Source: Bradyrhizobium erythrophlei (GTDB taxonomy: Bacteria; Pseudomonadota; Alphaproteobacteria; Rhizobiales; Xanthobacteraceae). Taken from it: a DNA stretch of 64,000 bases. A model generated the notes under the pieces. It worked only from the letters and a program-made list of their open reading frames with translations, was not told the origin of the DNA and ran no database searches. Positions 23,427-39,819 of this stretch are shown here, piece by piece. Both the position numbers and the translations under genes were made by a program. Each line of letters starts with the position of its first letter. Position 1 is the stretch's first letter. The stretch lies in contig NZ_LT670818.1 in NCBI RefSeq assembly GCF_900129505.1, positions 5,241,001 through 5,305,000 on the forward strand, in the 5' to 3' direction.

Positions 23427-23948
23427 TTTAGACTGTCGGCCGCCACTTCCGGTCTTCCCTCGGAAACGGACTGTGAGGAGCAAGTCGCCGAGATCTCCGG
23501 CAAACTCATGGCCTGGCACAAGGCTGACGAATGCAGCCGGCGTCTCGCCAGGATTCCTGGCATCGGCCCGATCGGCGCGGCGTTGCTGATGATGAAGACC
23601 CCGGCGCCGGAGCTATTCCGATCGGGGCGCCAGTTCGCAGCCTGGATCGGATTGACGCCGAGGGACCATTCAACAGCCGGCAAGGTCAAGCTCGGCGTCA
23701 TCACGCGAGCTGGCGATGAAGCTTTGCGCGCCGTGCTGGTGTCGGGGGCAACCGCCGTAATTAGGCATGCCGTTGGCCGCAAAGGACGCGCGTCGCCCTG
23801 GCTCATCGACCTTCTCAAGCGCAAGCCGCCGAAGCTGGCTGCCGTAGCGTTGGCCAACAAATTGGCCCGCATCGCATGGAAACTGATGGTCACAGGCGAA
23901 AACTACGCGGCGACATCCACGCCTATTGCTTCGGCGGCCGCGGTGTAA
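23427..23948 (+). pseudogene. IS110-family transposase, C-terminal remnant
   Basis: The frame contains the IS116/IS110/IS902 C-terminal domain: RLARIPGIGPIGAALL, FAAWIGLTPRDHSTAGK, GITRAGDEALR-like and ANKLARIAWKLM. The N-terminal DEDD catalytic half is missing; upstream codons continue only to about EEQVAEISGKLMAWHKADE. It cannot transpose by itself. Confidence 0.85.
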
Positions 23949-25413: not shown

Positions 25414-27496
25414 GTGTGCGCCGTGACAAGGCGGCGCTTTCCAGTGGGTGCGAACCCCACCCAGCAACCGCTCCAGCGGGAAGCAATCGGAGCAGTCATG
25501 GAGGCAACGAAGTGGCTGAAGCCTTCGATTAGCGTGTCACGAATTGGTGACGGCGCGAGTGTGCAGGCCGTAACGCGAGTGAGTGCGCCGGGAGACTGGC
25601 AAGGAGTATGTGGTGAAAGTCCACTGCGATGAGGGAGTAGCAATCCACGTCGGCCCCGATCTGTGCGCAGGCGTCCGCGAGGACGTCGGCGAAGCGTCAG
25701 TAGGGGAGCGTATAGGCCAGCCATTGAGCCGCGAAATCGTTAGCAACCCGGGTGCCGACGTTGTTCACTTGACGGAAGGCAAAAATCGGCAGGCGCGCTA
25801 CTGCGATCGCCTGTCGGACCCGGCGTGGTCTGAGACCCTGGCATGTACGGACGCTCCTTGCGCGGGAACCGGGAGATCTCTGGATCGGCCGTAGGCCCTG
25901 TTGGGTTGGATGGTCCGTAGCGGGAAGGTGAGGAGCCGTAGCCGTTGATGCACGATTCAGAGAAGTCTGACTCCGGCATAGTAGTGTCGAAGCCGACGAA
26001 CAAAACCGGGCGACCCGTGGCGGAGCCGGTTGAGCCAAGGCCGGGGACCAAGGGGAACGCGGATCAGCAAAGCACGCACCGGGCGCAGAGCCGGGCTCGC
26101 GTGATCCAGGCGCTCGGCCGCGTACGGCAAGCCGCAAGGCAGAGGAAGAAGGAACAGTTCACCGCGCTCCTCCACCATATCAGTACCGATACGCTCCGGA
26201 CGGCGTTCTACGCGCTCAAACGTAAAGCCGCCCTCGGCGTGGATGGTGTGACATGGCACGACTACGAGGCGGATCTCGAACTCAGGATCGAGGATCTGCA
26301 TGGACGGGTCCACCGAGGAGCCTATCGGCCGCAACCATCCCGCCGGGCCTACATAGACAAGGCGGATGGAAAACAACGGCCGTTAGCGATCGCCGCGCTC
26401 GAGGATAAGATCGTCCAGGGCGCGACCGTCATGGTGCTCAATGCTATCTACGAAGGCGACTTCGTCGGCTTCTCTTATGGGTTCCGACCCGGACGAGGAC
26501 CGCATGATGCGTTGGACGCACTTTCGACAGCGATCAAAACAAGAAAGGTGAACTGGATACTTGACGCCGACATCCGGAACTTCTTTGGGGCTGTTAGCCA
26601 AGACTGGCTAGTTCGCTTCCTTGAACATCGGATCGGTGACAAGCGCATCATCCGCCTCATCCAGAAATGGCTGAGAGCGGGCATACTCGAAGACGGGGTC
26701 GTGACAGTCGATGACCGGGGAACTGGCCAAGGCTCGGTGGTCTCGCCGATCCTAGCCAACATTTACCTGCATTACTGCTTCGACCTCTGGGCTGAGCGCT
26801 GGAGACGGCAGGAGGCCCGGGGCGATATGATCGTCGTGCGATATGCCGACGATCTGGTTGTCGGCTTCGAGCATGAGGGCGACGCACGTCGCCTCCTTGA
26901 TGCGATGCATGACAGGCTCGGGGAATTTGCACTGTCGCTCCATCCGGACAAGACGCGCTTGATTGAGTTCGGCCGCTTTGCTGCGAACGATCGCAAGCTG
27001 CGTGGGCTTGGAAAGCCGGAAACCTTCGCGTTCCTGGGTTTCACATTCATTTGTGGTCGATCTCGCCGCGGCAACTTCCAGCTTCAACGGAAGACCCGAC
27101 GCGACCGCATGCGGCGGAAGCTCGGGGATATCAAGGCGGAGCTACTGCGCAGGATGCATCAGCCGATTCCAGAGCAAGGGAAATGGCTGAGGCAGGTCGT
27201 GGCTGGCCACTTCGCCTACTACGCGGTTCCGACAAACAGTCGGGCGCTCTCGGCGTTCCGGCATTATGTGACCGATCTCTGGCGACGAACGCTTCGGCGG
27301 CGCAGTCAGAAAGATGGGTTCACATGGGAACGCATGACGAAGTTGGTCGCCGACTGGCTTCCCCCGCCGCGCATCCTTCATCCTTGGCCCGACGATCGCT
27401 TTGACGTCAGACACCCAAGGTAGGAGCCGGATGCCTTAGTCGGGCGAGTCCGGATCTGTGCGGGGGGCGGCCAGTAATGGCCGTCCCTACCGCGAT
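25414..27496 (+). mobile_element. complete group II intron with encoded maturase
   Basis: The 5' end matches the consensus (GTGTGCG at 25414). About 530 bases of structured non-coding scaffold precede the reverse-transcriptase gene. Domain V is the 34-base hairpin at 27424-27457 (gagccgga...tccggatct), directly after the maturase stop. Domain VI is the hairpin at about 27460-27493 (gcggggggcggcca / tggccgtccc-ta-ccgc) with an unpaired ta that can hold the branch A. The 3' end is about 27496 (…cgcgat). Similar sequence after the remnant's domain V suggests a longer 3' extension is possible. The 5' exon ends tctgttgcgg; no interrupted gene was recognised. Confidence 0.82.
25948..27423 (+). CDS. 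group II intron reverse transcriptase / maturase
   Basis: This 491-residue protein has all reverse-transcriptase blocks: ALGVDGVTW (block 1), YRPQPSRRAYIDKADGKQRP, FSYGFRPGRGPHDAL, the DADIRNFFGAV palm motif, GTGQGSVVSPILANIYL, the catalytic YADD in VVRYADDLVVGF, and FLGFTF. A maturase X domain follows (GHFAYYAVPTNSRAL ... VTDLWRRTLRRRSQ). There is no C-terminal HNH endonuclease; it ends shortly after PPPRILHPWPDDRFDVRHPR. It would splice its own intron and promote retrohoming. An in-frame TTG precedes the ATG by one codon. Confidence 0.93.
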   Translation: MHDSEKSDSGIVVSKPTNKTGRPVAEPVEPRPGTKGNADQQSTHRAQSRARVIQALGRVRQAARQRKKEQFTALLHHISTDTLRTAFYALKRKAALGVDGVTWHDYEADLELRIEDLHGRVHRGAYRPQPSRRAYIDKADGKQRPLAIAALEDKIVQGATVMVLNAIYEGDFVGFSYGFRPGRGPHDALDALSTAIKTRKVNWILDADIRNFFGAVSQDWLVRFLEHRIGDKRIIRLIQKWLRAGILEDGVVTVDDRGTGQGSVVSPILANIYLHYCFDLWAERWRRQEARGDMIVVRYADDLVVGFEHEGDARRLLDAMHDRLGEFALSLHPDKTRLIEFGRFAANDRKLRGLGKPETFAFLGFTFICGRSRRGNFQLQRKTRRDRMRRKLGDIKAELLRRMHQPIPEQGKWLRQVVAGHFAYYAVPTNSRALSAFRHYVTDLWRRTLRRRSQKDGFTWERMTKLVADWLPPPRILHPWPDDRFDVRHPR

Positions 27497-27942
27497 ACGC
27501 TGAGCAATCCTCGAAAAGGACAATGCACAGGCCAACCCGACAACCCTTTCGGGGAAGGCTGATACGGTTGGGAGAAGCAGAGCGAAGAGTACGCCCAGCC
27601 GCTGCGCCGGGGTAGTGGCGACAGCATGTACACAAGGAAAAGCGCAGCGCATTCCGAAGGGCACTGCGGCTTGCTATGCAAGGGCATAGATAAATCTGCT
27701 TCTCACTTACGCCTTAGCCGTCCAGCGACCCAATGAAAGCAACCCGTTAGGCTTCTGTTGCGACATCGTCAAATCAGTGTTAGGCAGCGTCTTATCGCAT
27801 CTGGCCTGGCAATCGCGCACCGCTTCGACGCGATAGAGCGGGCCGCCACCCCTGGGGAGGCGGTAATATCCAGCGCAGCCATCTCGTTCATCGCCCATGA
27901 CAGCAAGACCTCTGGGCGGGCGAGAGCACTCGAGCGCATGTT
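27497..27942. other. non-coding stretch between the intron and the regulon
   Basis: No convincing gene is seen. Bases 27497-27690 look like an intron-associated 3' extension. A frame at 27758-27952 (RLIASGLAIAHRFDAIERAA) has no recognisable family and runs into the first operator. Confidence 0.4.
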
Positions 27943-28010
27943 CTATCGATAGATAGAGATTGACAGAGTTCAGCAGGAGTCGTATTAAACAACGATCTAT
28001 CGATAGATAG
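27943..28010 (+). promoter_or_regulatory. promoter bracketed by two CTATCGATAGATAG operators
   Basis: Identical copies of CTATCGATAGATAG lie at 27943-27956 and 27997-28010. Between them is a near-consensus sigma70 promoter: TTGACA at 27960-27965, 17 bases, TATTAA at 27983-27988. A repressor on either site would block RNA polymerase. It points to the PEP-mutase-family gene at 28161. The same design occurs at 31493, 38097 and 39186. Confidence 0.8.
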
Positions 28011-28160
28011 TCTAGCTGCGCAGCGGCGCGTGGCAGTTGATCGTAGCCCGCCGCTCAGTGCTGCGCGGCGGGTCACGGTCGCCGGCGTGCGCAAGCAAGA
28101 CTTCGACTCCAAGTCTGTCTGCGATTCGCCATCGTGCAATCTATTGAACGGAGGATGACC

Positions 28161-28907
28161 GTGAGCCAGACCAAGAAAGCTAAACAATTTGCCGCCCTTC
28201 ACGTCAAAGGGACGCCAGTGATACTTTACAACGCGTGGGATGCAGGCAGTGCAAAAACGATCGTCGATGCCGGCGCGACGGCGATCGCGACCAGCAGTTG
28301 GTCTGTCGCCAGTGCGCAGGGATATGAGGACGGCGAGGACCTTCCGCTTCCTCTTGCCGAGCAGATCGTCGAGCGGATCGCGGCGGCAGTTGACGTGCCT
28401 GTGACCGTGGACTTCGAAGGCGGGTATAGCGACGATGATCGCAAGCTGGCCTCGAACATTTCCAGGCTTCTCGATCTTGGAATCATCGGGATCAATTTCG
28501 AGGACCGCGTGGTCAAGGGCAGTGGGCTCTACGACATTGTTCGACAGGCGAAACGGATCGCAGCGATTCGCCATGCTGCCGAGCGGAAGGGCGTTCCTCT
28601 CTTTATCAATGCACGGACCGATGTGTTCTTAGGTAACAGCGGCGATGTCGACGAAGCCCTGGAGAGAGCGAAGGCATACGCGTCGGCCGGCGCGTCCGGC
28701 TTCTTCATTCCCGGGCTGACCGAGGCCGACCATATCCGTCGGATTGCTGAGGAAGCGACGCTGCCGGTCAACGTCATGGTCATGGAAGGCGTCCCATCGA
28801 ATGACAAGCTCGCGAAACTGGGTGTTGCCCGCGTGAGCTACGGGCCGATTCCGTTCATCGAGACGATGGAAGCCCTCCAGAAGAAGGCGGGCAAGCTCTT
28901 TTCGTAA
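28161..28907 (+). CDS. isocitrate lyase / PEP phosphonomutase-family protein
   Basis: This 248-residue TIM-barrel enzyme (PEP_mutase/ICL superfamily) has LYNAWDAGSAKTIVDAGATA at the N-terminus, the metal-site segment TVDFEGGY, GINFEDRV, INARTDVFL and FFIPGLTEADHI. The family cleaves or forms C-C or P-C bonds of oxaloacetate-like acids. The short form without KKCGH is a lyase or hydrolase rather than an isocitrate lyase, and the true substrate is unknown. I chose the GTG at 28161 because GGAGG lies six bases upstream; earlier in-frame starts are at 28134 and 28155. Expression is expected from the operator-flanked promoter at 27943-28010. Confidence 0.85.
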   Translation: MSQTKKAKQFAALHVKGTPVILYNAWDAGSAKTIVDAGATAIATSSWSVASAQGYEDGEDLPLPLAEQIVERIAAAVDVPVTVDFEGGYSDDDRKLASNISRLLDLGIIGINFEDRVVKGSGLYDIVRQAKRIAAIRHAAERKGVPLFINARTDVFLGNSGDVDEALERAKAYASAGASGFFIPGLTEADHIRRIAEEATLPVNVMVMEGVPSNDKLAKLGVARVSYGPIPFIETMEALQKKAGKLFS

Positions 28908-29062
28908 TGTGCCCGCAACGCCTGGAGGACGGCCAATCCTGCGACGCCCTTGCAAGGATTGTGAGTAAACTTGCGCCGCGAAGGATACGCCAATTCCGCG
29001 GCGCCGTTTGCCCAGATATCCTCATCTTCGTCTCGTGGACGTGGACCAGGACGCTTTCTATA

Positions 29063-29093
29063 GGGCCGTTTGAGCACGCAACGGCCCCCTTTT
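29063..29093 (+). terminator. Rho-independent-like terminator
   Basis: GGGCCGTT and AACGGCCC form a perfect 8-bp stem with a 9-base loop, followed by cctttt. It lies 156 bases after the PEP-mutase-family gene and would separate it from the zinc-finger gene. Confidence 0.6.
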
Positions 29094-29169
29094 ACGACGG
29101 CATGACAAGTCGTCGGTAACACGACACGGTGGGCGTTCGCCCGCTGGATCGAACGGACGCGGAGCGGCA

Positions 29170-29523
29170 ATGAGCCACGTATCAGAAGGCATTGACCCTC
29201 ACGCCGTTCCAAGTGAAACGGGATGTGTCGAGTGTCTTGCTGCTGGCCAATGGTGGCTCCATCTGCGGCGCTGCGCCAAATGCGGCCACATCGGCTGTTG
29301 CGATACGTCGCCAAACCAGTACGCCACTGCGCACTTTCGCGAGACTGGCCACTTTATGATAACAAGCTTCGAGCCTGGTGAGGACTGGTTCTGGAATTAT
29401 GGAACCGGAAAGCCGTTCTACGGCCCCAGGCTGGCGCCGCCGCGATCTCGACCCCTCGACCAGCCTTCGCCTGGACCAAAGGGGCGCGTCCCTGCGGACT
29501 GGGAACATCACCTCAACGAATGA
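29170..29523 (+). CDS. UBP-type zinc-finger protein
   Basis: This 117-residue protein is almost wholly one ZnF-UBP domain. Cys pairs in CVEC and CAKCGHIGCC and His residues in ATAHFRETGH can bind two or three zinc ions; the tail is Pro-rich. In eukaryotes the domain binds the ubiquitin C-terminus. Bacterial stand-alone copies are common in rhizobia, often beside redox genes, and have no established role. It precedes the DUF1993 gene by 60 bases on the same strand. Confidence 0.85.
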   Translation: MSHVSEGIDPHAVPSETGCVECLAAGQWWLHLRRCAKCGHIGCCDTSPNQYATAHFRETGHFMITSFEPGEDWFWNYGTGKPFYGPRLAPPRSRPLDQPSPGPKGRVPADWEHHLNE

Positions 29524-29584
29524 GCATCCGGTTTATAACGACGGCAGCACGCCACTAGCGCAAAGTCTACCGAAGGGAGATCCC

Positions 29585-30091
29585 ATGTATTATCAAGTCG
29601 TTTCGCAGTGCGTCCAGTCCTTGAAGACTGTAGAGGTCTTGCTCGACAAGGCCGACCAATTTGCATCTGCCAAGCAGTTTGACGTCCGTGTGCTGTTGAA
29701 CGGTCGTCTCGCGCCCGACATGAAGCCCTTGATCTACCAGGTGCAGAGCGCTTGCGACTATGTCAAAGCCGCCGCCGCCTGGCTTTCGGGGCAGACGCCT
29801 CCAAAGCACGAGGACAATGAGCAGACCCTCGAAGAGCTGCGCGCTCGCATTCGGAAAACTGTCGATTTCGCCGAAACCGTAGGCAAGGCACAATACGAAG
29901 GTGCACAAGACCGCAAAATCAGCCTTTCGTGGGTTCCCGGGAAGGTCATCGGCGGCGAAGATTATCTGCTTCAGATGACGATTCCGAACGTCTACTTCCA
30001 CATTGCGATGACGTACGCGGTCCTCCGCAACGGCGGCGTCGACGTCGGCAAGATGGACTTCCTTGGGCCAATGAATTTTGTCCAAGCCTGA
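29585..30091 (+). CDS. DUF1993 domain protein
   Basis: This 168-residue protein matches DUF1993: MYYQVVSQCVQSLKTVEVLL at the start, RLAPDMKPLIYQVQSACDY, and the C-terminal helix PNVYFHIAMTYAVLRNGGVDV with GKMDFLG. It belongs to the DinB-like four-helix-bundle superfamily. The function is unknown, but DinB-like proteins often handle thiol-dependent or metal-dependent chemistry. The ATG at 29585 has GGGAG upstream. It lies between the zinc-finger gene and the AlkB-like gene, likely in one transcript. Confidence 0.85.
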   Translation: MYYQVVSQCVQSLKTVEVLLDKADQFASAKQFDVRVLLNGRLAPDMKPLIYQVQSACDYVKAAAAWLSGQTPPKHEDNEQTLEELRARIRKTVDFAETVGKAQYEGAQDRKISLSWVPGKVIGGEDYLLQMTIPNVYFHIAMTYAVLRNGGVDVGKMDFLGPMNFVQA

Positions 30092-30181
30092 CGAGACAGG
30101 CATTCTTTTCTTGCCCGGACCCGCTCGGCACCGGTTGGTGGCATGGTTGCTCGGGGGCGGGCCGCCCGTTCACCAGGTTCG

Positions 30182-30814
30182 ATGCCCGTGAAACGCGCTT
30201 CAGCGAAGAAGCACACCAGCAATCCTATTAGCGGTATGGGCGACCTGTTCGGGGAGCCTGAGCTACCTGCCGGTTTCCGCTATATCCCGGATGTTATATC
30301 GACCGCCGACGAAAAGAGCCTCGTCCAGCGATTCGAAAAACTGCCTCTGAAGCCCTTCGAATTTCACGGGCATCAGGGCAATCGCCGCATATACACCTTT
30401 GGGCACGGGTATGTGTTCGCAGGCCAGGAGCCACGCGCCGATGCGAGCATTCCCGATTACCTTCTGCCGCTCACCGACGTTGCAAGCCAGATCAGTGGCG
30501 TGCCGGCCGACGCGTTTGAACAACTCATGGTGACGGAGTATGCGCCGGGCGCTGGAATCGGCTGGCACCGCGACCGACCGTCGTATGAAGATATCGTCGC
30601 AGTATCGTTTCTCGCGCCTTGCACCTTACGGCTGCGTCGGAGGGTGGAGGAGGGCTGGGAGCGCCGGTCCGCGCATGTCGAGCCACGATCGGTGTATTTG
30701 CTCCATGGCCCGGTGCGGAACAGCTGGCAGCACAGCATCGCGCCGATGGACGCTCTGCGTTTCTCCGTGACCTTGCGTACATTTCGCCCTGGCCGAAGCT
30801 CCTCGAGCGATTAG
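30182..30814 (+). CDS. AlkB-like 2-oxoglutarate/Fe(II) dioxygenase
   Basis: About 210 residues with the AlkB fold. PAGFRYIPDVIS starts the domain. The iron ligands are His and Asp in IGWHRDRP and a His in WQHSIAP, and the 2-oxoglutarate-binding Arg is in LRFSVTLRTF. The VTEYAPGAGIGWH segment is typical of AlkB proteins that repair alkylated nucleic acids by oxidative demethylation. The ATG at 30182 gives a basic N-terminus; an ATG at 30143 would add thirteen residues. An alkylation-repair enzyme fits an electrophile-stress setting. Confidence 0.87.
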   Translation: MPVKRASAKKHTSNPISGMGDLFGEPELPAGFRYIPDVISTADEKSLVQRFEKLPLKPFEFHGHQGNRRIYTFGHGYVFAGQEPRADASIPDYLLPLTDVASQISGVPADAFEQLMVTEYAPGAGIGWHRDRPSYEDIVAVSFLAPCTLRLRRRVEEGWERRSAHVEPRSVYLLHGPVRNSWQHSIAPMDALRFSVTLRTFRPGRSSSSD

Positions 30815-30941
30815 CGTTCCACCATTGCGGTTGTCAGATCGGCGAATAGATGGGCGAAGTGATCAGACAAAACGTCCGCGGCGATGGTGAGGTCGCTTCA
30901 GCCCGAAGCCGGGATCATGACAGCGCGATTTCGCGCGATCA

Positions 30942-31478
30942 TCAGGCGACTGCGAATGTGGGCCCGGTAAGCCCGGCAGTCGCCTGATCGAACGCAGAGA
31001 TGTCGCCATAGGCGCGCGCAAGAATCAAGCCTCCTTCCAAGGCCGCCATCACATGGAACGCCCGGGCCACAGCATCCGCTCCGCCAATTCTGCTCGAAAG
31101 GTCATCGATGCAGCGTCGAAAGAACATCTCGATTTCCTGCACGATCTCAGGCGGTAGACCGCCCGCTTGAGCGCCAAGCATGCCGCCTAGACACATCCGG
31201 CCATCCCGTTCGATCGCGCTGCGAAACGCGGATCGATAGATCACAATCACCTCGTCGCCGCTCTCATCATGCCGCCGCGCGACCAGTTCGAAGAAGCGAT
31301 CCCCGTACCGGCGCGCGACCGCAGCGGCCATTCCCGCCTTGGTCGGGAAATGGTGGTGGACACTGGCGCTCTTGATGCCGATCTCGGCTGCAAGATCGCG
31401 GAAGCTGAACCCCCGGTAGCCCGCTTCGCGGATGCGAGCCTCGGCCAGGTCCATCAGGCGCTCTGCCGTTTCGTTCAT
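30942..31478 (-). CDS. TetR-family regulator of the CTATCGATAG regulon, paralogue 1
   Basis: This 178-residue TetR protein has the DNA-binding region GYRGFSFRDLAAEIGIKSAS then VHHHFPTKAGMAAAV (residues 20-55) and a helical ligand domain with RMCLGGMLGAQAGGLPPEI. Its recognition helix is almost the same as that of the second TetR at 39268 (VGVKSSSVHYHFPTK), so both should bind the same palindrome. The gene diverges from the hydrolase at 31574, and the intergenic region 31493-31557 carries two operator copies, implying autorepression. Confidence 0.9.
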   Translation of the reverse strand: MNETAERLMDLAEARIREAGYRGFSFRDLAAEIGIKSASVHHHFPTKAGMAAAVARRYGDRFFELVARRHDESGDEVIVIYRSAFRSAIERDGRMCLGGMLGAQAGGLPPEIVQEIEMFFRRCIDDLSSRIGGADAVARAFHVMAALEGGLILARAYGDISAFDQATAGLTGPTFAVA

Positions 31479-31492
31479 CGCATTTCCTATCT

Positions 31493-31557
31493 CTACTGAT
31501 AGATAGACGTTGACGGCGGAGATTTCCAGAGTTATCCCGTGCTCTACCTATCGATAG
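31493..31557. promoter_or_regulatory. divergent promoter region with two operators
   Basis: CTACTGATAGATAG (31493-31506) and CTACCTATCGATAG (31544-31557) bracket TTGACG at 31510-31515, a 17-base spacer and TATCCC at 31533-31538. It reads towards the hydrolase at 31574; the TetR gene at 31478 lies on the other side. The segment tttccagagtta between the boxes is shared with the promoter at 38097-38176. Confidence 0.78.
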
Positions 31558-31573
31558 AGCAGAGTAGGGCCTC

Positions 31574-32434
31574 ATGAGCAACGAACAGGATACGCCGGTC
31601 GTTCGCCACGTCGACACGCCGTCAGGCCGAATCGGTTACGTGGAAGTGGGATCAGGACCTGCCGCTCTCTTCGTCCACGGCGTGCTGCTGAACAAGCACA
31701 TGTGGCGCCACCAGATCGGCGCGCTTTCAGATTTGCGGCGCTGCATCGCGGTCGATCTGCTTGCGCACGGCGACACGGAGATTGCAGCGGCTCAGGATGT
31801 GTCTGTGACCGCCAACGCGAAGATGCTGAAGGAAGTGCTCGACGCGCTGCATATAGATCAGGTCGATCTGATCGGAAACGATAGCGGCGGCGGAATTTGT
31901 CAGATCTTCGCCGCGCTCAACCCGGATCGCGTCCGGACGCTGACGCTCACCAACTGCGATACCCATGACAACTGGCCGCCCGAAGCGTTCAAACCTTTCG
32001 TGGAAATGGTGGCTGCCGGCGGGCTGAGCAAAACCCTCAACGCAATGCTCGGCGACAAATCGATCTATCGCTCGCCGGGTGCGCTTGGCCCAGCCTACGA
32101 GCACCCCGAAGCCGTCAGGGATGAAGATATCGAAATCTACCTCCGGCCACACCTGCGCAACGAGCAGCGTACCCACGATCTGGAGCGCTTCGTCGGCGCA
32201 TTCGACAATAGGCACACTTTGGCCATCGAGCCCCAATTGCGCCAGCTCAAGGCTCCGACACTGATCGTATGGGCCACGGATGATGTCTATTTCCCGGTGA
32301 AATGGGCGCACTGGCTGGCCGAGGCGATCCCAGGAGCGAAGCCGCCCGTCGAGCTGTCCGGAGCACGGCTTTTCTTTCCCGAGGAGCGGGCGGACGCGCT
32401 CAATCAGTTGCTGCGCGGCCATTGGGCCGGCTGA
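31574..32434 (+). CDS. alpha/beta hydrolase with Asp at the nucleophile elbow
   Basis: This 286-residue alpha/beta-hydrolase has the oxyanion loop FVHGVLLNKHMW and the elbow IGNDSGGG, where Asp103 occupies the nucleophile position (Ser104 is next to it), followed by the acid region PTLIVWATDDVYFPV. The usual C-terminal catalytic His is not evident: the equivalent segment reads SGARLFFPEERADAL. The protein may therefore hydrolyse poorly, use another base, or act on an unusual substrate. It heads a two-gene unit with the flavoprotein at 32498 and is controlled by the operator pair at 31493-31557. Confidence 0.85.
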   Translation: MSNEQDTPVVRHVDTPSGRIGYVEVGSGPAALFVHGVLLNKHMWRHQIGALSDLRRCIAVDLLAHGDTEIAAAQDVSVTANAKMLKEVLDALHIDQVDLIGNDSGGGICQIFAALNPDRVRTLTLTNCDTHDNWPPEAFKPFVEMVAAGGLSKTLNAMLGDKSIYRSPGALGPAYEHPEAVRDEDIEIYLRPHLRNEQRTHDLERFVGAFDNRHTLAIEPQLRQLKAPTLIVWATDDVYFPVKWAHWLAEAIPGAKPPVELSGARLFFPEERADALNQLLRGHWAG

Positions 32435-32497
32435 CCAATCTGACCCGCACGATTCAGCGTCGCACAAACCGAAATCCCCATCAGCGAGGCACTTGGT

Positions 32498-34132
32498 ATG
32501 CTGCTGGACGACCGCATGGCTCAAATCGTTCCGACGCTGACTCCGGCTCAAATACAGTTCGCTCTTCGTTTCGCGAGCGGTCCTGAGCGGCGTTTTGCAC
32601 CGGACGAAAAGCTTCTCGATGTCGGCGATCGGGACATGGCCGTGTGGCTGGTCGTCGAGGGGGGCATCGTTGCGAGCCGACGGGATGGTCTGGGCCGGGA
32701 GGGGATATTTGCCACCGGCGGACCGGGTCAGTTCAGCGGAGAAGTAAGCGATCTTGCCGGGCATGCCTCCTTGGCCATGGTCTGCGCGGGACCGGACGGG
32801 TGCACAGCCTATCCGTTCGATCTCCCTCACCTTCGAGCTCTGCTCATCAGCAGCGCGGACATCGGTGAACTGATGATGCGAGCCTTTATCCTGCGGCGCG
32901 CCGCGCTGTTGGAGGGGGACAGCGTTGGCTCGGTCATCCTTGCAGAAGCGGGATCGCCGGCGACGGTTCGCCTTCGGGGCCTGCTTACCCGGAACAGCTA
33001 CCCGCACTCGCTGATCGATGCAGGTGGTACTGAAGGTAAAGCCCTTGTCGAGCGCCTCGGCGTGCAGGCGGCCGATTTGCCGATCCTGATCTGCCCGAAC
33101 GGGACGGTGCTGCGGCGGCCCAGCGATACTGAGGCGGGAGTAGGGCTGGGAATCGTTCCCGATATTAAGCCTGGAACGACGTACGACGTGATCGTCGTTG
33201 GCGCGGGCCCGGCAGGCCTCGCTGTTGCCGTGTATGCGGCATCGGAGGGGCTCTCCGTTCTGGTTGTCGATAGCCGCTCGTTCGGTGGCCAAGCGGGCGC
33301 CTCCTCGAGGATCGAGAACTATCCGGGATTTCCGACCGGCATTTCCGGCCAGGCGCTTACGGCGCGCGCATTTCTTCAAGCTCAGAAATTCGGTGCTCAA
33401 TTTGCAGTCCCAGTCTCGGTCGTCGAACTCGATTGCTCGCAGCCACCGTTGCACCGCGTGGCACTCGACAATGGCGTTTCAATTTATGGACGGACGGTTG
33501 TGATCGCGTCGGGCGCGCGTTACCGGCGGCCAGAGATCGAAAACCTCGACCGCTTCGAGGCAACCAGCGTCTCGTGCTGGGCGACGACGATCGAGGCGGC
33601 CCTGTGCGAGGGCCGCGATATCGTTCTCGTCGGAGGAGGCAATTCTGCGGGGCAGGCGGCTGTCTTCCTCGCCGCGCACGCGCGCCAGGTACATCTGGCT
33701 GTCCGCTCATCGGGCCTCGATGCCTCCATGTCCCGCTACCTGATCGACAGGATCAAGGCGACGCCCAACATCGACTTGCGGGTCCGCACCGCCGTCACCG
33801 GATTGTCGGGTACGGCAGATGGTACACTGGAAAGCATCGACATGACCTGCCGTGAGAGCGGCGACAGTCGCCGGGTCGACGCACGGCACATGTTCTTGTT
33901 CATCGGTGCCGATCCCAACACGCAGTGGCTCGATCGGCGTATCACCCTGGACAACAAGGGCTTCGTCGCCACCGGTAGCGATCCGCAATTGCCGTTGGCA
34001 ACCAGCAGCCCCGGTGTTTTTGCGATCGGAGACGTGCGGCGCGGATCGGTGAAGCGCGTGGCGGCCGGCGTCGGCGAGGGTGCCGCGGCTGTGGCTCAGA
34101 TCCATGCCTACCTCGCCACCCTTCATTCGTAG
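32498..34132 (+). CDS. cNMP-binding domain fused to a thioredoxin-reductase-like flavoprotein
   Basis: This 544-residue protein has an N-terminal cyclic-nucleotide-binding-like beta-roll (about residues 10-130; FASGPERRFAPDEKLLDVGD, GGPGQFSGEVSDLAG), a thioredoxin-like linker (about 140-215; LIDAGGTEGKALVERLGV, ILICPNGTVLRRPS), then FAD-binding VVGAGPAGLAVAVYA and NAD(P)-binding VLVGGGNSAGQAA domains, ending with SPGVFAIGDVR. The redox CxxC of thioredoxin reductase is missing: the site reads SCWATTIEA. So it is not a normal TrxR and may be an NAD(P)H oxidase or quinone reductase that reports to the cNMP domain. It follows the hydrolase by 63 bases. Confidence 0.87.
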   Translation: MLLDDRMAQIVPTLTPAQIQFALRFASGPERRFAPDEKLLDVGDRDMAVWLVVEGGIVASRRDGLGREGIFATGGPGQFSGEVSDLAGHASLAMVCAGPDGCTAYPFDLPHLRALLISSADIGELMMRAFILRRAALLEGDSVGSVILAEAGSPATVRLRGLLTRNSYPHSLIDAGGTEGKALVERLGVQAADLPILICPNGTVLRRPSDTEAGVGLGIVPDIKPGTTYDVIVVGAGPAGLAVAVYAASEGLSVLVVDSRSFGGQAGASSRIENYPGFPTGISGQALTARAFLQAQKFGAQFAVPVSVVELDCSQPPLHRVALDNGVSIYGRTVVIASGARYRRPEIENLDRFEATSVSCWATTIEAALCEGRDIVLVGGGNSAGQAAVFLAAHARQVHLAVRSSGLDASMSRYLIDRIKATPNIDLRVRTAVTGLSGTADGTLESIDMTCRESGDSRRVDARHMFLFIGADPNTQWLDRRITLDNKGFVATGSDPQLPLATSSPGVFAIGDVRRGSVKRVAAGVGEGAAAVAQIHAYLATLHS

Positions 34133-34318
34133 TCCATGGTGACTTAAGCGGATGGAGCGTCGGCGGCTTGTCGCAGGCAGGTGAGGCAGTCGAACTGCCT
34201 TTGGTCGGCGTACCCGGACCTCCTGCTCGACCTGCACATCGACCCCGCCACCTATGACGACGCTGCACGAAGCGCGGTGCCGGCAGGTCGGTGGCAAACA
34301 TATGCTGCGTGTCCCGCT

Positions 34319-35929
34319 CTAGGATGAGCGCGTTCCAGCCGCCCGGATGAGCCGCCAACTCGCCAGGCTTGCAAAAACTGCGACGACCGCGGCAACGGAG
34401 AGTGCAGCACCGAAGCCGGCTGCTACGCTGGCGTGCACCGTGCCTTGGAGGGCGATTCGAATCGGATCTGATAAAGCAGACAAAGCACCGCTCGCGTCGC
34501 CGCCCACGATCCGAAGGCTCAGGTCGTGCCAATCGATCCTCTGATCGAGCACGAGGGGCTTTCCAAGCCTTCGAAGGTTGGCCTCGGCCACGCCCGCGAG
34601 CACTGCGCCCAGCCCCGCGACACCGGCGATGATGCCAATGAACCGCGTCGTACTTGCCAATCCGGAGGCCATTCCGGCGCGCTCTGGCGGAACGGAGCTG
34701 ACTTGAGCTTTCGCCGTCTCGCTGTTGAGCAGGCCCGCGCCGGATCCCGTGATGAACATGCCGATCGCAGCCGTCCAATATGCGAGGTCCGCCAGCACGG
34801 CTGCTGCCGCGATCGCATTGCCAAGCGCGACCAATCCAAGACCAAAGCTCAGGATCGCACGGCTCGACATGCGCGTCGCGAGCCTGCCGCCCACGCTGGG
34901 ACCGATCAGCAGCGGCAATGCGAAAGGTATCATTGCGAGACCTGCGATCGCCGGCGAAAGAACAAACGCATCCTGGAGATAGAGCGGCAGGATCGTCATC
35001 ATGACCTGTGCCGCGGCCGCGTAACCCAGCATAGCGACGGCTGCTCCGGTGACGGTCGGATCGCGGAATATCGACAGGTCGATCATCGGGCGTGGGTGTT
35101 TGCGTTCGGCAAAAACGAACGCCACAAGCAGGACCGCGCCCACGGCTAATCTGATGATTGTCGGCGCACTCTCCCAGCCGATGCTATTTGCATCGATCAG
35201 AGCCCACACGACGCTGAAAAGACCGGCGCCAAAGAGGAGGATTCCCCGATAGTCCAAGCCTGACGCTTTCGGGTCGCGAGATTCCGCGACCGACGTCAGG
35301 GCGAGGACGATCAATCCGGCGCCCAACGGCAAATTGATGTAAAACGCCCATCGCCATCCCAGATAGGACGTAACGAGGCCGCCGAGGATCGGACCGAGAG
35401 GCGGCGCCATGCCCATTACGGTGCCCCAGATCGCGTAGACGCGGTCTCGTTCGTGAGGTTCGAATCCGTGTGCGACGACGGCCAGCGACGACGTCAGCTG
35501 GAGCGCGGCGCCGACCGCCTGCAATGCGCGCGCCCCGTTCAGCGTAGCGAGATTGGGTGCCGCACCGCAAAGAAAAGAGGCGAATGTGAAGATCGACAGC
35601 CCGATAAGCAGCATGCGCCGCCGCCCAAGACGGTCGGCCAAGGCGCCTGCTGGCATCAGCAGTGCTGCGAACGGAAGGATATACGCGCTGACGACCCATT
35701 CGACATCAGTGAATCCGCCGTGCAGGTCGCGCGCGATGGACGGCAGCGAGACCGCGACAATGTTGGTGTCGAGCATGATGAGGAAGGGCGCGCCGGCACA
35801 ACAAAGCAACATGCGCAGCTTCCGGCCAGAGAACCGAGCCGTCGGAGACGGTGGCATAGCGTCAGTCTGCGGCTGTCCCGCTGCATTACCGAGGATATTT
35901 TCGCCATTTCTGAGCACGAAACCATCCAT
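34319..35929 (-). CDS. MFS drug exporter, DHA2 (EmrB/QacA) family
   Basis: This 536-residue inner-membrane protein has about fourteen hydrophobic segments. Markers are LDTNIVAVSLPSIARDL in helix 1, the A-motif ADRLGRRRMLL and the antiporter motif C region GPILGGLVTSYLGWRW, all typical of drug/H+ antiporters with 14 helices. The first ATG (35929) gives a long polar N-terminus; the ATG at 35854 (MPPSPTARFSGRK) is also plausible. It lies 100 bases downstream of the OYE gene on the same strand, as the last gene of the SDR-OYE-MFS unit, and would export the toxic inducer or its products. Confidence 0.88.
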   Translation of the reverse strand: MDGFVLRNGENILGNAAGQPQTDAMPPSPTARFSGRKLRMLLCCAGAPFLIMLDTNIVAVSLPSIARDLHGGFTDVEWVVSAYILPFAALLMPAGALADRLGRRRMLLIGLSIFTFASFLCGAAPNLATLNGARALQAVGAALQLTSSLAVVAHGFEPHERDRVYAIWGTVMGMAPPLGPILGGLVTSYLGWRWAFYINLPLGAGLIVLALTSVAESRDPKASGLDYRGILLFGAGLFSVVWALIDANSIGWESAPTIIRLAVGAVLLVAFVFAERKHPRPMIDLSIFRDPTVTGAAVAMLGYAAAAQVMMTILPLYLQDAFVLSPAIAGLAMIPFALPLLIGPSVGGRLATRMSSRAILSFGLGLVALGNAIAAAAVLADLAYWTAAIGMFITGSGAGLLNSETAKAQVSSVPPERAGMASGLASTTRFIGIIAGVAGLGAVLAGVAEANLRRLGKPLVLDQRIDWHDLSLRIVGGDASGALSALSDPIRIALQGTVHASVAAGFGAALSVAAVVAVFASLASWRLIRAAGTRSS

Positions 35930-36029
35930 TCCGCTATTCCGCGACCTGCGCGATGAGCTCGGCTACGTAGATCAACTAGAAGAGGTCCTGCCGACACGCG
36001 GACGATCGGCAGGGCTTTCGAAAGCTCGA

Positions 36030-37175
36030 TCAGGACGTGGGAAGCCGATCCTGTGCGGACGTGTCGTAGGCGGGATAGTCGGTGTAGCCGCGCGCGGTGT
36101 AGCCATAGAAGGTGCTGCGGTCATAGGGGTTCAGTGGCAGGCCGAGCTTGATCCTCCTGGGCAGGTCGGGATTCGCGATGAAGTGACGGCCGAAGGCGAT
36201 CAGGCCGGCATCGCCGTTCGCGATGCTTGCCTCTGCTGTCTCGGGATTGAAACCACCGGCCGCGATCACCGGTCCCTTGAAGATCTTGCTCAATTCCTGG
36301 GCTGCGACCGGTGCCTGCGTTTCGGCAATGGTCTCACCACCCCTTACCCGCGGCTCGATGAGGTGAAGATACGCGAGCCCGAAACCGCCCAGCCCCTCTG
36401 CCACCGAGCGGAACAGCGCACGGGGATTGCTGTCGCCCATGTGATTGAACGTCCCGCTTGGCGCGAGCCGAACCCCAACCCGATCCGCGCCCCAGACTTG
36501 GATCAACGTCTGGACGACCTCGACGAGAAGACGCATTCGATTCTCGACCGTACCGCCGTATTGGTCGGTCCGCTTGTTGGTGTTGTCCTGTAGAAACTGG
36601 TCCATCAGGTGGCCGTTGGCCGCCATCAGCTCGACACCATCGAAACCCGCTTTCTTGGCGTTGCGCGCGGCGGCGCGATATTGATCGAGGATGCTGGCGA
36701 TTTCCGCCGTCTCCAGCGCGCGATGCGGCGACGTCTGGCGAAACCCGTCAGGCGTATCGACGACGATGCCAGGATCAGCCCAGTAAGTCGGATCGACAGA
36801 CGCCGTAACCGGCTGCGATCCTGTGATCGAAACGTGTGTCGTGCGGCCAGCATGCCAAAGCTGCGTGAAGAAGTATGCGCCCTTGGCGTGAACCGCATCC
36901 GTGATCCGTTTCCAGGCCGCCACATGGTCGTCCGCGTAGAGACCGGGCGCATGGTAGTAACCTCGCGCGGATGCCGCGATCGCCGTCGCTTCCGTGACGA
37001 TCAGCCCGCCGTCAGACGCACGCTGCGTATAATATTCGAGCTGCAAGTCGCTCGGAATGCCCGTCCCTGGCTGCGCCCGTAGCCGGCTCATCGGCGGCAT
37101 GACGACACGGTGTTTCAGTGTGATGGGCCCGATTTGAACGGGCGTGAAGAGTTTCTTTTGAACGTTTGTACCCAC
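36030..37175 (-). CDS. Old Yellow Enzyme-family flavin oxidoreductase with altered active site
   Basis: This 381-residue FMN TIM-barrel protein has LFTPVQIGPITLKHRVVMPP at the N-terminus, YFFTQLWHAGR, the NRMRLLVEV segment and the phosphate-binding VIAAGGF and FGRHFIANPDLP. The family reduces alkenes, nitro groups or quinones with NAD(P)H. In this protein the HGANGY signature reads MAANGH: Met184 replaces the substrate-binding His, Asn187 is kept, and His189 replaces the proton-donor Tyr. GTG at 37175 is the start, with GGAGA upstream; a longer frame begins at 37271. It lies between the SDR and the MFS gene. Confidence 0.88.
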   Translation of the reverse strand: MGTNVQKKLFTPVQIGPITLKHRVVMPPMSRLRAQPGTGIPSDLQLEYYTQRASDGGLIVTEATAIAASARGYYHAPGLYADDHVAAWKRITDAVHAKGAYFFTQLWHAGRTTHVSITGSQPVTASVDPTYWADPGIVVDTPDGFRQTSPHRALETAEIASILDQYRAAARNAKKAGFDGVELMAANGHLMDQFLQDNTNKRTDQYGGTVENRMRLLVEVVQTLIQVWGADRVGVRLAPSGTFNHMGDSNPRALFRSVAEGLGGFGLAYLHLIEPRVRGGETIAETQAPVAAQELSKIFKGPVIAAGGFNPETAEASIANGDAGLIAFGRHFIANPDLPRRIKLGLPLNPYDRSTFYGYTARGYTDYPAYDTSAQDRLPTS

Positions 37176-37302
37176 TGGGATTCTCCGTTCGTGACGGGCC
37201 TGCGCCGGAAAGGGAAGGGAGGGGCGTGATGGGGAGGTTGGCCCCGCGCGGTCAAGCGCGGGACGGATCACCGATGTCGGACGTCGACCTGGTCACGAGC
37301 GA

Positions 37303-38076
37303 TCACTGCCTGCCAGCCATGACGCCACCGTCGACCGGAAGGATGACACCGGTGATGAAACTCGCCTGATCCGAGGCAAGGAACAGAAGCGCCTCGGCCG
37401 CGTCTGCGGGCTGACCGTTGCGGCCAAGAGGGTGCATCGCATTGAAGGTCGGCAAAACGGTCTTCACCTGTTCTGGTGTCAGGAACGTGCTGAAGACCGG
37501 TGTCTCGATCACGCCGGGCGCGATCGCATTCACGCGGATCTTGTCGTGGGCGAGCTCGATCGCGAGGTTCTTGACCAGCGCATGGACGCCACCATTGGCT
37601 GCTGAATAAGCGGACGAGGGCGTGGCACCGATCGCCTGCAGGCCCCACATGGATCCGGTCTGCACGATCGCGCCGCCGCGGCCCGCAGCCTTCATGGCCT
37701 TCGCCGCCGCCTGCGCGATGAAAAACTTGCCCTTGAGGATGATGCTCAGGAAATGATCGTATTCATCTTCGGTGACATCGAGGAATGGCTTAGGCCCGAA
37801 GATGCCGGCGTTGTTGAACAGGACGTCCAGACGGCCAAAGCGATCGAGCGCTGTCTTTACCGCTGCTTTTCCTGTCGCCGGCAGGGAAATGTCGCCCACA
37901 TGGGCGATAGCGCGCTTTCCGGTCGCGTCGATTTGCTTGGCTGCGGCCTCGGCTTTGGCGGCATCGCGTCCGACGATGACAACAGAACCACCTTCTGCGA
38001 CGAATCGGGTCGCCACTTCCTTGCCGATGCCTGAACTGCCTCCTGTGACGATCGCGACCTTGTCCTGAAAACGCAT
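37303..38076 (-). CDS. SDR-family protein lacking catalytic Lys and Asn
   Basis: This 257-residue classical SDR has cofactor loop TGGSSGIG (11-18), NNAG (88-91), Ser142 and Tyr157. The Lys of YxxxK is replaced by Asn161 (YSAAN) and the structural Asn of the usual VNLKG is Ile (IILKG). Two of the four N-S-Y-K catalytic residues are therefore lost while the fold, including the C-terminal ITGVILPVDGG, is intact. It may be a non-catalytic NAD(P)-binding or regulatory protein, or use other chemistry. It is the first gene of the SDR-OYE-MFS unit, with AGGAG before the ATG and the operator-flanked promoter 21 bases upstream. Confidence 0.87.
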   Translation of the reverse strand: MRFQDKVAIVTGGSSGIGKEVATRFVAEGGSVVIVGRDAAKAEAAAKQIDATGKRAIAHVGDISLPATGKAAVKTALDRFGRLDVLFNNAGIFGPKPFLDVTEDEYDHFLSIILKGKFFIAQAAAKAMKAAGRGGAIVQTGSMWGLQAIGATPSSAYSAANGGVHALVKNLAIELAHDKIRVNAIAPGVIETPVFSTFLTPEQVKTVLPTFNAMHPLGRNGQPADAAEALLFLASDQASFITGVILPVDGGVMAGRQ

Positions 38077-38096
38077 GGCAACTCTCCTGGGTTATT

Positions 38097-38176
38097 CTAC
38101 CTATCGATAGATTGATGAGCTTCGGAGAATTAACTCTGGAAACTGGATGCGTCAAGCCTGATCTATCGATAGAGAG
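38097..38176 (-). promoter_or_regulatory. SDR-OYE-MFS promoter bracketed by two operators
   Basis: On the minus strand the order is CTCTCTATCGATAG (38176-38163), TTGACG, 17 bases, TAATTC, then CTATCGATAGGTAG (38110-38097), 21 bases before the SDR start codon. The two palindromes and the -35/-10 arrangement match those at 27943, 31493 and 39186. Confidence 0.78.
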
Positions 38177-38355
38177 GAACAACGTCGTGACGGGCGGCGG
38201 AAGAATTGCTGAACGACTTCCCTCGATGTCGCTTCGCCGAGCTGAGAGAGGGATGCAAGCCGCGAGCACGGAACGGCCGATCCATGACTTGGGCCCTCGA
38301 ATGCCTGGGTTCCTCGGACTTGCGGCAAGCTTTGTTTTTCGCGAACGACGGAGTC

Positions 38356-39054
38356 CTATCTGCGCGTCGTCGGGCCACGTGGAATGTCAGGATAATATTG
38401 TGGGCTTTCACGTCGATCGAACATGCCGTAGTCACGCACGATGCGCACGACGCGATGACGAACAGCGTCGGCCTCGGTAGGGAGCTGTGGTTCAAACTGC
38501 TCAGCGGAGTTGCGGTCGCGCCAGCTCGCCAACAATGCAAGCTTTCCCGCATTGTAGATGCTTGAGAAAACGTCGTGGTCGATCAGGGCCGAGTGTGTTC
38601 GATCGAGCGACAAGCGGTCAGCGAGCTCCGACGGAGCCAGTGATCCTGGTCCAGTCGGCGCCGGCAAAATCTCGATAAGCGTCGCATACTTCCCGGCGCC
38701 GACCTCCGTCTCGTCCAGACGTTGTTCAACCAGACGTACGCCCTCGGGAGGCGCCGTATCCGACACGATTTCGCCAACCCGCAAATGATAATCTTGAAAG
38801 ACGTCGTCGCGCCCGCGTTGTTGAGTCTCGTGGTGTCTGGCGACGGTGCGCCATCTCACAACGGACTTTTCGTCTCGCCATGTGGAATGCGACAGAATCC
38901 ACCCCGGCCGACGCGCGCTTTCGAAGCGCTCGTTGTCGATGAACCCGTCGATGCCCTCTAGGATCGGCTTCAAGTCTTTCGCAAGGGCGAGGTAAAGGTC
39001 GAATTGCTCTTTCTTGGGATGGACTTCGAAGATCACCGAGAACATCTTGATCAC
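38356..39054 (-). CDS. antibiotic biosynthesis monooxygenase (ABM) domain protein
   Basis: This 232-residue protein has an N-terminal ABM-like ferredoxin-fold half (MFSVIFEVHPKKEQFDLYLA, LEGIDGFIDNERFESARRPG, LSHSTWRDEKSVVRWR) and a second, more divergent half (KYATLIEILPAP ... LLASWRDRNSAEQFEP), so it looks like a tandem ABM protein. ABM proteins oxidise quinols or anthrones without cofactor, or bind such ligands. It diverges from the second TetR gene, and the two operators at 39186-39250 lie between them. Confidence 0.8.
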   Translation of the reverse strand: MIKMFSVIFEVHPKKEQFDLYLALAKDLKPILEGIDGFIDNERFESARRPGWILSHSTWRDEKSVVRWRTVARHHETQQRGRDDVFQDYHLRVGEIVSDTAPPEGVRLVEQRLDETEVGAGKYATLIEILPAPTGPGSLAPSELADRLSLDRTHSALIDHDVFSSIYNAGKLALLASWRDRNSAEQFEPQLPTEADAVRHRVVRIVRDYGMFDRRESPQYYPDIPRGPTTRR

Positions 39055-39185
39055 CCAGCTTGCTTGAGGTTCGTGCCCGAGGGAGGGTTGATGTCTTCCT
39101 GCCGCGATCGACGGGCCGAAGCCCGGCCAAGGGCCCGAAGATCAGGCTTGCGACAGACGTTCGCTGCTTTGCTTAGCATAGTGCC

Positions 39186-39250
39186 CTATCGATAGATAGA
39201 CTGACAGGCATTGTTTTTGATCTCTGTAAGCCCTACCTATCGAGAGGTAG
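39186..39250. promoter_or_regulatory. divergent promoter region with two operators
   Basis: CTATCGATAGATAG (39186-39199) and the longer palindrome CTACCTATCGAGAGGTAG (39233-39250) bracket CTGACA, 17 bases, CTGTAA, pointing to the TetR gene at 39268. The ABM gene starts at 39054 in the other direction. Confidence 0.76.
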
Positions 39251-39267: not shown

Positions 39268-39819
39268 ATGAGTGACGTCGCCGCCGCCATCATGGACGCC
39301 GCTGAGCGGCGAATGCGGAAGGGCGGCTTCAACGGTTTCAGTTTTCGAGAGATCGCAGCCGACGTGGGCGTCAAGAGTTCCAGCGTCCACTATCATTTCC
39401 CGACCAAGGAGAATCTCGCGGCTGCCGTCATCCAGCGCTATACCGCACAGACGGCGGATTTGATCGAACGGGAGCTCCAGAAGGAGCCAAACCCGGTGAA
39501 GGTTTGGGTGAAAGCGTTCCGAGGGACCCTGCACTCAGCGGATCGCATGTGTCCATGCGCCGTGCTCGGCGCATCATCCGTGGATCTGCCGCCGGAAGTA
39601 TCGGCGGAAGTGAAGAAGTTCTTCAAGATGTGCCATGAAAAGCTCGTGGAGGAGGGCCTCTCGTCGGATGACGCCTCCCAACTGCTGGCGACGATCACGG
39701 GCGCATTGGTGGTCGCCAACGCCGTAAATGACCTCGCGACATACGATCGAGCTACGCGTGAGTTTACCCGAGCGTGGAAACCTGCGCCGGCGAAAGTTGG
39801 TCGCCAGCGCTCGAAGTAA
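39268..39819 (+). CDS. TetR-family regulator of the CTATCGATAG regulon, paralogue 2
   Basis: This 183-residue TetR protein has the DNA-binding region GFNGFSFREIAADVGVKSSS then VHYHFPTKENLAAAV and a ligand domain with DRMCPCAVLGASSVDLPPEV, homologous to that of the TetR at 30942 throughout. The paired Cys (CPC) in the ligand domain is absent from the paralogue and could sense thiol-reactive electrophiles, which is inference. The ATG at 39268 has GGGAGC upstream; the frame is open back to 39211 through the operators, which argues for the later start. Confidence 0.9.
   Translation: MSDVAAAIMDAAERRMRKGGFNGFSFREIAADVGVKSSSVHYHFPTKENLAAAVIQRYTAQTADLIERELQKEPNPVKVWVKAFRGTLHSADRMCPCAVLGASSVDLPPEVSAEVKKFFKMCHEKLVEEGLSSDDASQLLATITGALVVANAVNDLATYDRATREFTRAWKPAPAKVGRQRSK

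Follow-up and report, generated by a model that had tools for sequence, protein, structure and literature searches.

Among the described regulators closest to the system treated here is NemR of Escherichia coli (nemRA-gloA), which electrophiles or HOCl release from DNA and in which Cys106 is the sensing residue. The tetR and tetA genes of Tn10 are arranged divergently. Their control region contains two 15-bp operators (TCTATCATTGATAGG), tetO1 and tetO2, lying 11 bp apart (PMC9736018). Two further TetR regulators are DitR of Stenotrophomonas (mfsBC), described as released by thiol oxidation via two cysteines (PMC9342713), and FrrA of Bradyrhizobium, described as flavonoid-responsive (PMC4070704). 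FrrA comes from the genus of the DNA analysed in this study, a stretch of 64,000 nucleotides from Bradyrhizobium erythrophlei (contig NZ_LT670818.1, positions 5,241,001 to 5,305,000), hereafter called the window. It carries two paralogous candidate TetR repressors, TetR1 and TetR2, in a cluster with detoxification-type genes and four pairs of palindromic operator-like sites. We put at roughly 70% the probability that these are NemR-like TetR repressors which, through dual-operator promoters, control the detoxification of electrophiles or xenobiotics. A comparative genomics study of Proteobacteria includes the TetR regulons FabR, FadP, LiuQ, PsrA and RutR (PMC5343134), and no publication on the motif or TetR subfamily described below was found among the literature matches listed, which cover few subscription journals.

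Operator pairs and their promoters

The natural operator unit in the window is an 18-bp palindrome, CTAYCTATCGATAGRTAG, which the eight sites match at 14 to 17 of the 18 positions. They form four pairs, with start-to-start spacings of 54, 55, 62 and 51 bp (pairs 1 to 4) and gaps of 33–44 bp between the 18-mers. Pair 1 lies upstream of a PEP-mutase-family gene, where operator 1 (27939..27956; 15/18) is followed after 3 nt by a plus-strand promoter-like TTGACA-17-TATTAA (27960..27988) and then by operator 2 (27993..28010; 17/18). Pair 2, between tetR1 and a hydrolase gene, is built in the same way from operator 1 (31489..31506; 14/18), a plus-strand TTGACG-17-TATCCC (31510..31538) again 3 nt from it, and operator 2 (31544..31561; 15/18). 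The promoter-like sequence of pair 3 is on the minus strand (TTGACG-17-TAATTC; 38127..38155), with operator 1 at 38159..38176 (15/18), 3 nt from TTGACG, and operator 2 downstream of it at 38097..38114 (17/18). All three enclosed promoters, read directly from the DNA, have the form operator-3 nt-TTGAC[AG]-17 bp-(-10). Pair 4 occupies the intergenic region between the gene for an antibiotic biosynthesis monooxygenase (ABM)-domain protein and tetR2 (39182..39199, 15/18; 39233..39250, 17/18). The promoter call is weaker at this pair, because only a plus-strand CTGACA-17-CTGTAA (39201..39229), also read directly and of low confidence, is present, 1 nt from the operator. An ABM-directed promoter from pair 4 was considered and set aside, as no good -35/-10 was found; in the counterpart from Rhizobium (L020), that place is occupied by TTGCCA/TTTAAT.

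A preliminary description of this DNA had located eight palindromes of a 14-base motif, and each of its positions indeed holds a match with at most three mismatches. The motif is present at all eight sites, exact at only three of them (27943, 27997 and 39186), and the 18-mer replaces it as the unit. The four pairs stand, with 18-mer starts 51–62 bp apart in place of the 47–66 bases first given; a TTGAC-type -35 box, 17-base spacer and -10 box, ascribed to every pair, is found within three, the fourth (TetR2) having only the weak CTGACA/CTGTAA. Allowing up to three mismatches, the 14-mer gave 24 strand-matches in the window against a mean of 1.90 and a largest value of 8 in 100 shuffles, none of which reached 24. 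Nor is the motif common outside promoters: across the genome searched (one contig, 9,184,651 bp), the 14-mer has 8 strand-matches when up to one mismatch is allowed, all inside the cluster. At up to two mismatches there were 23+23 matches versus 15+11 for the reversed control, which places the 14-mer at background level outside the cluster. The core CTATCGATAG occurs nine times in the genome, six times in the cluster and three times elsewhere. These three lone cores (1047585, 6154563 and 8187899) were considered as a wider genome regulon and left uncounted, since they score 13–14/18 with weak outer half-sites and are unpaired, no second site of at least 12/18 being found within 75 bp.

To place these pairs in a wider setting, a species-genome collection was scanned for two perfect cores 32–60 bp apart. 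This yielded 68 stretches, 21 of which were set aside as repeats or as belonging to remote taxa (Bacteroidota, archaea, Gracilibacillus, Prochloron and a metagenome-assembled genome of Coriobacteriaceae). The 47 kept stretches, together with one family genome (G169) and the window, provided 64 pairs at a looser threshold, in which the gap between 18-mers is 28–50 bp. In 40 of the 64 the gap between an operator and TTGAC is exactly 3 nt, compared with a mean of 0.12 and a maximum of 3 in 2,000 shuffles. Dereplication left 51 pairs, and 36 of these have TTGAC within 15 nt of the operator, at an offset of 3 in 28 cases, 4 in four, 2 in one and farther away in four (one pair being counted at both ends). 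The triplet between operator 1 and the -35 box is variable (22 different triplets in 45), and the start of operator 2 varies between -8 and +19 when counted from the last base of the -10 box, a 17-bp spacer being assumed. What is new here is this asymmetry: the upstream operator is fixed in its distance to the promoter, and the downstream one is free to shift. For the 33 dereplicated pairs whose TTG lies at offset 3, helical phasing of the two operators was not established (Rayleigh p 0.048–0.139 for periods of 10.0–11.0).

Beside an adjacent TetR gene, the promoter points away from that gene in 29 cases and toward it in two (both TetR2), the orientation being uncalled in eight. A fixed spacing that arises as a by-product of a divergent tetR promoter is ruled out, because the rule also holds with no tetR gene nearby: among 25 pairs without a TetR gene within 250 bp, the offset is 3 in 20 (one of them TTGC), 4 in three and 9 in one, with none in the last. 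The 3-nt spacing has been kept while the spacer, the core, the TetR sequence and the position of operator 2 changed, and for this reason a register-specific contact of the operator-1 dimer with RNA polymerase deserves mention, by which the TetR subfamily would clamp or hold the polymerase and not merely exclude it. We consider this unlikely. Quite unlikely, too, is an operator-1 dimer that touches RNA polymerase, either in an inactive complex or to activate in one ligand state, with operator 2 doing the blocking. The constant distance between operator 1 and the -35 box despite the variable triplet would suit such a contact, as would its retention at those 20 of 25 pairs without a nearby TetR gene and with another core, and the wide range of operator 2 positions. 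TetR proteins mostly repress, however; the 3-nt rule is broken by the pairs of three Verrucomicrobiota stretches (L039, L044 and L045), and at one promoter of the relative G335 operator 1 is gone.

Recurrence and the associated TetR proteins

Far from being confined to the window locus, the layout belongs to a TetR subfamily that is widespread. A relative of TetR1/TetR2 was found by tblastn with the window proteins in 39 of the 68 stretches, that is, in 39 of the 47 kept and in none of the 21 set aside. Counting G169 and the window along with 32 of the 68 stretches, 35 TetR genes have a pair no more than 250 bp away. One contig of Rhizobium sophorae has six pairs (L019, L020, L050 and L076), adjoining genes for PEP-mutase, SDR, OYE (old yellow enzyme), tetR2/ABM, isochorismatase and an AcrB-type pump; R. 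multihospitium likewise has six (L037, L063, L072 and L073). Following 55 oriented pairs, the first gene encodes a GST in 20 cases, an SDR in 12, PEP-mutase in four, DJ-1, isochorismatase, HlyD or AcrB in three each, and OYE or TetR2 in two each, with singles making up the remaining three. At least one representative of each new target class was named by Pfam; the first open reading frame taken as downstream of its pair in L022 is probably wrong.

Closer to home the layout is sparse. Perfect-core pairs occur in two of 248 genomes of the family, and the cluster is accessory within the genus, with TetR2 at 92% or higher in four of 79 genomes, the own genome being included in both counts. The relatives G321 and G335 retain eight and seven of the eight operators, which proves little alone because the surrounding coding DNA is itself 92–95% identical. 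On plasmids, TetR1 relatives (E 1e-20) were found in 56 of 72,556 records, all below 60% identity, 30 of them on predicted conjugative plasmids. In another genome (G331, stretch L117), SDR- and PEP-mutase-like genes are accompanied by three operator pairs, in a cluster with two TetR2-like genes (60–63% identity). A separate case is the Prevotellaceae metagenome-assembled genome RUG12386, where a dispersed repeat contains two CTATCGATAG cores 43 bp apart, without TetR relatives, in seven stretches (L025, L038, L057, L059, L067, L068 and L078).

From 61 genomes of the order, among them the own genome, a motif-free set of TetR1 homologues was chosen by protein similarity only (E <= 1e-15); it comprised 21 genes in 16 genomes. 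Paired palindromes lie upstream of 12 of these, or of nine of the 18 outside the own genome, and in 11 of the 12 TTGAC (TTGTG in L093) stands 2–4 nt from the operator, eight times at 3. In L086 and L089 the 18-mer could be placed in more than one register, and the L096 pair (16 of 20) is at chance level and was uncounted. Apart from two that share the helix type (L083 and L084), the pairless homologues number seven, and they have a different recognition helix with Lys or His at residue 37. Three of these seven (L094, L095 and L099), a sister TetR group with the helix GIRKASIHHHF, carry one CTACTAGAAGGTAG site soon after TTGAC, and no pair.

The genome also encodes a third paralogue, TetR3 (at 808.7 kb), divergent from a GST gene and with its own pair of a different core, CTACCAAGTGACAGATAG. 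The two sites are 54 bp apart and 3 nt from TTGACC (L003 1380-1451; genome 808579-808650), and with at most two mismatches this operator has two sites genome-wide, both at tetR3/GST. Residue 37 in the recognition helix is Ser in all 34 TetRs beside canonical pairs and Ala in all three (TetR3, L091 and L093) that have the core CTACCAAGTGACAGATAG or one near it, a pattern that is suggestive of covariation of helix and operator.

That binding of the TetR proteins to the sites is something we infer leaves room for a different, unlinked regulator that reads them, with the TetR genes as passengers, and the eight of the 47 kept stretches without a TetR relative would fit this. We nevertheless regard it as very improbable: TetR genes adjoin pairs across both Pseudomonadota and Verrucomicrobiota, homologues selected by protein carry pairs, and TetR3 stands beside a core of its own.

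Genes of the cluster

TetR1 (30942..31478, minus strand) and TetR2 (39268..39819, plus strand) both contain the TetR_N domain (PF00440; 40.0 and 45.0 bits, cut-off 24). The predicted structure of TetR1 (mean pLDDT 92) has the all-helical TetR fold, and the closest structures to it are TetR proteins. Their description as paralogues with near-identical recognition helices is borne out, at 39% identity overall and with three of 14 positions differing between the helices (GIKSASVHHHFPTK and GVKSSSVHYHFPTK).

Following pair 1 is the gene for the PEP mutase-family enzyme (28134..28907, plus strand; PF13714, 268 bits), with a likely start, by reading, at the GTG at 28161. Next to pair 2 are the alpha/beta hydrolase (31574..32434, plus strand; PF00561) and a flavoprotein with a cNMP domain and a thioredoxin-reductase-like part (32498..34132, plus strand; PF07992; PF00027 at 26.2 bits, cut-off 27.5; TIGR01292 below cut-off), whose genes are likely co-transcribed. 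On the minus strand, the SDR oxidoreductase (37303..38076; PF13561) is the first gene of an SDR-OYE-MFS series that continues with the OYE, nearest to N-ethylmaleimide reductase (36030..37271; PF00724; NF007899 at 354.9 bits, cut-off 403), and an MFS efflux transporter of DHA2/EmrB type (34319..35929; PF07690; TIGR00711 at 256.8 bits, cut-off 230.2). The stress regulon put forward in the preliminary description keeps its dual operators, its link to TetR1/TetR2 and its detoxification-type gene set, while the ABM-domain protein (38356..39054, minus strand; PF03992) would belong to it by position only.

Just to the left of the cluster lie a fragment of an IS110-type transposase (PF02371; window 23508-23948) and a reverse transcriptase open reading frame (PF00078; window 25945-27423), the latter probably part of a group II intron. 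Farther left (window 17710-23313), a single protein of 1,867 aa combines protein kinase, AAA, GAF, PAS and histidine kinase domains.

Proposed mechanism and comparison with known systems

In the mechanism that we propose, TetR1 and TetR2 would each bind the 18-bp palindrome as dimers, and every target promoter would offer them two copies of it. At 3 nt before the -35 box, operator 1 would lie beside the sigma-4/alpha-CTD position, and operator 2 would extend from about the -10 box into the transcript start. With the core promoter thus enclosed by two dimers, RNA polymerase would be denied access. The dimers would be released by an electrophile or xenobiotic, acting probably at the conserved Cys96, which would turn on SDR-OYE-MFS, the hydrolase-flavoprotein pair and the gene of the PEP-mutase family as well as both repressors and, probably, ABM. 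We infer TetR binding, repression, joint binding by both paralogues, the inducer and sensing by Cys96 alike.

Several observations weigh against control by such repressors. Pair 4 encloses no good promoter, and 15 of the 51 dereplicated pairs have no TTGAC within 15 nt, some of these having TTGCA or TTGCG at offset 3. At the PEP-mutase promoter of G335, operator 1 has decayed and TTGACA and operator 2 are kept (L115, about 1690-1765). There is no strict helix-operator code, because variant cores, too, are accompanied by Ser37 (L085, L087 and L092) and because L083 and L084, of the same helix type and with Ser37, have no paired sites. Several target genes (PEP-mutase, ABM and isochorismatase) do not encode classic electrophile enzymes. 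Lastly, Cys96 is found in 58 of 59 readable relatives, with paired sites or not, and could therefore be structural.

Beside pairs, every one of the 33 readable TetRs has Cys96, which both profile and multiple alignments place opposite Cys106 of NemR. The same dual-operator repression could be exerted by a ligand-binding, non-thiol xenobiotic sensor with a plant aromatic or flavonoid in its pocket as the inducer, a mode reported for other TetR regulators of Bradyrhizobium; we hold this to be possible, if doubtful. GST and efflux pumps (MFS here, RND in relatives) are common xenobiotic targets, and a genistein-induced Bradyrhizobium locus is reported to combine an RND pump and a cNTP-binding protein with two TetR genes (PMC4070704). 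The conservation of Cys96 at the NemR Cys106 position speaks for a thiol sensor instead, and OYE, DJ-1, GST and SDR targets would better suit electrophiles.

With the rule operator-3 nt-TTGAC-17 bp-(-10)-operator, the regulator, site and targets of this widespread TetR subfamily could be predicted at the sequence level. It brings GST, OYE, SDR, DJ-1 and efflux genes together in a single type of detoxification regulon, chiefly in soil- and plant-associated bacteria, and the locked geometry of operator 1 and the -35 box poses the question of whether TetR repressors only block polymerase or touch it.

By analogy, TetR1 and TetR2 are best read as NemR-like in working, with a tetO-like operator pair. 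TetR1 is 18% identical to E. coli NemR. Of the NemR targets, an OYE and a glyoxalase, OYE is present in the window and DJ-1/glyoxalase-III-like targets in relatives only. Set against E. coli NemR, the present system would differ in its dual 18-bp operators, its fixed -35 spacing and its several promoters. Against curated models, TetR2 scores 21 of 247 for AcuR and 21 of 300 for CurR, and TetR1 matches neither at E 0.001; NemR itself scores 196.4 of 300 for CurR and 119.3 of 247 for AcuR, no NemR model being among the models listed. Also among the closest systems are the structural-genomics TetR proteins 3on4 and 2g7s, whose titles give a TetR-family regulator and no function or operator. DitR differs by another box (CATACnnnnnGTATG) that is single and lies between -35 and -10 (PMC9342713). 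Tn10 TetR belongs to a different ligand-domain subfamily from TetR1/TetR2. Its likeness lies in two palindromic operators per control region and the CTATC/GATAG half-site (PMC9736018), whereas the operators of the window are 18 bp long and 33–44 bp apart (28–50 bp across the 64 pairs) and enclose the whole core promoter.

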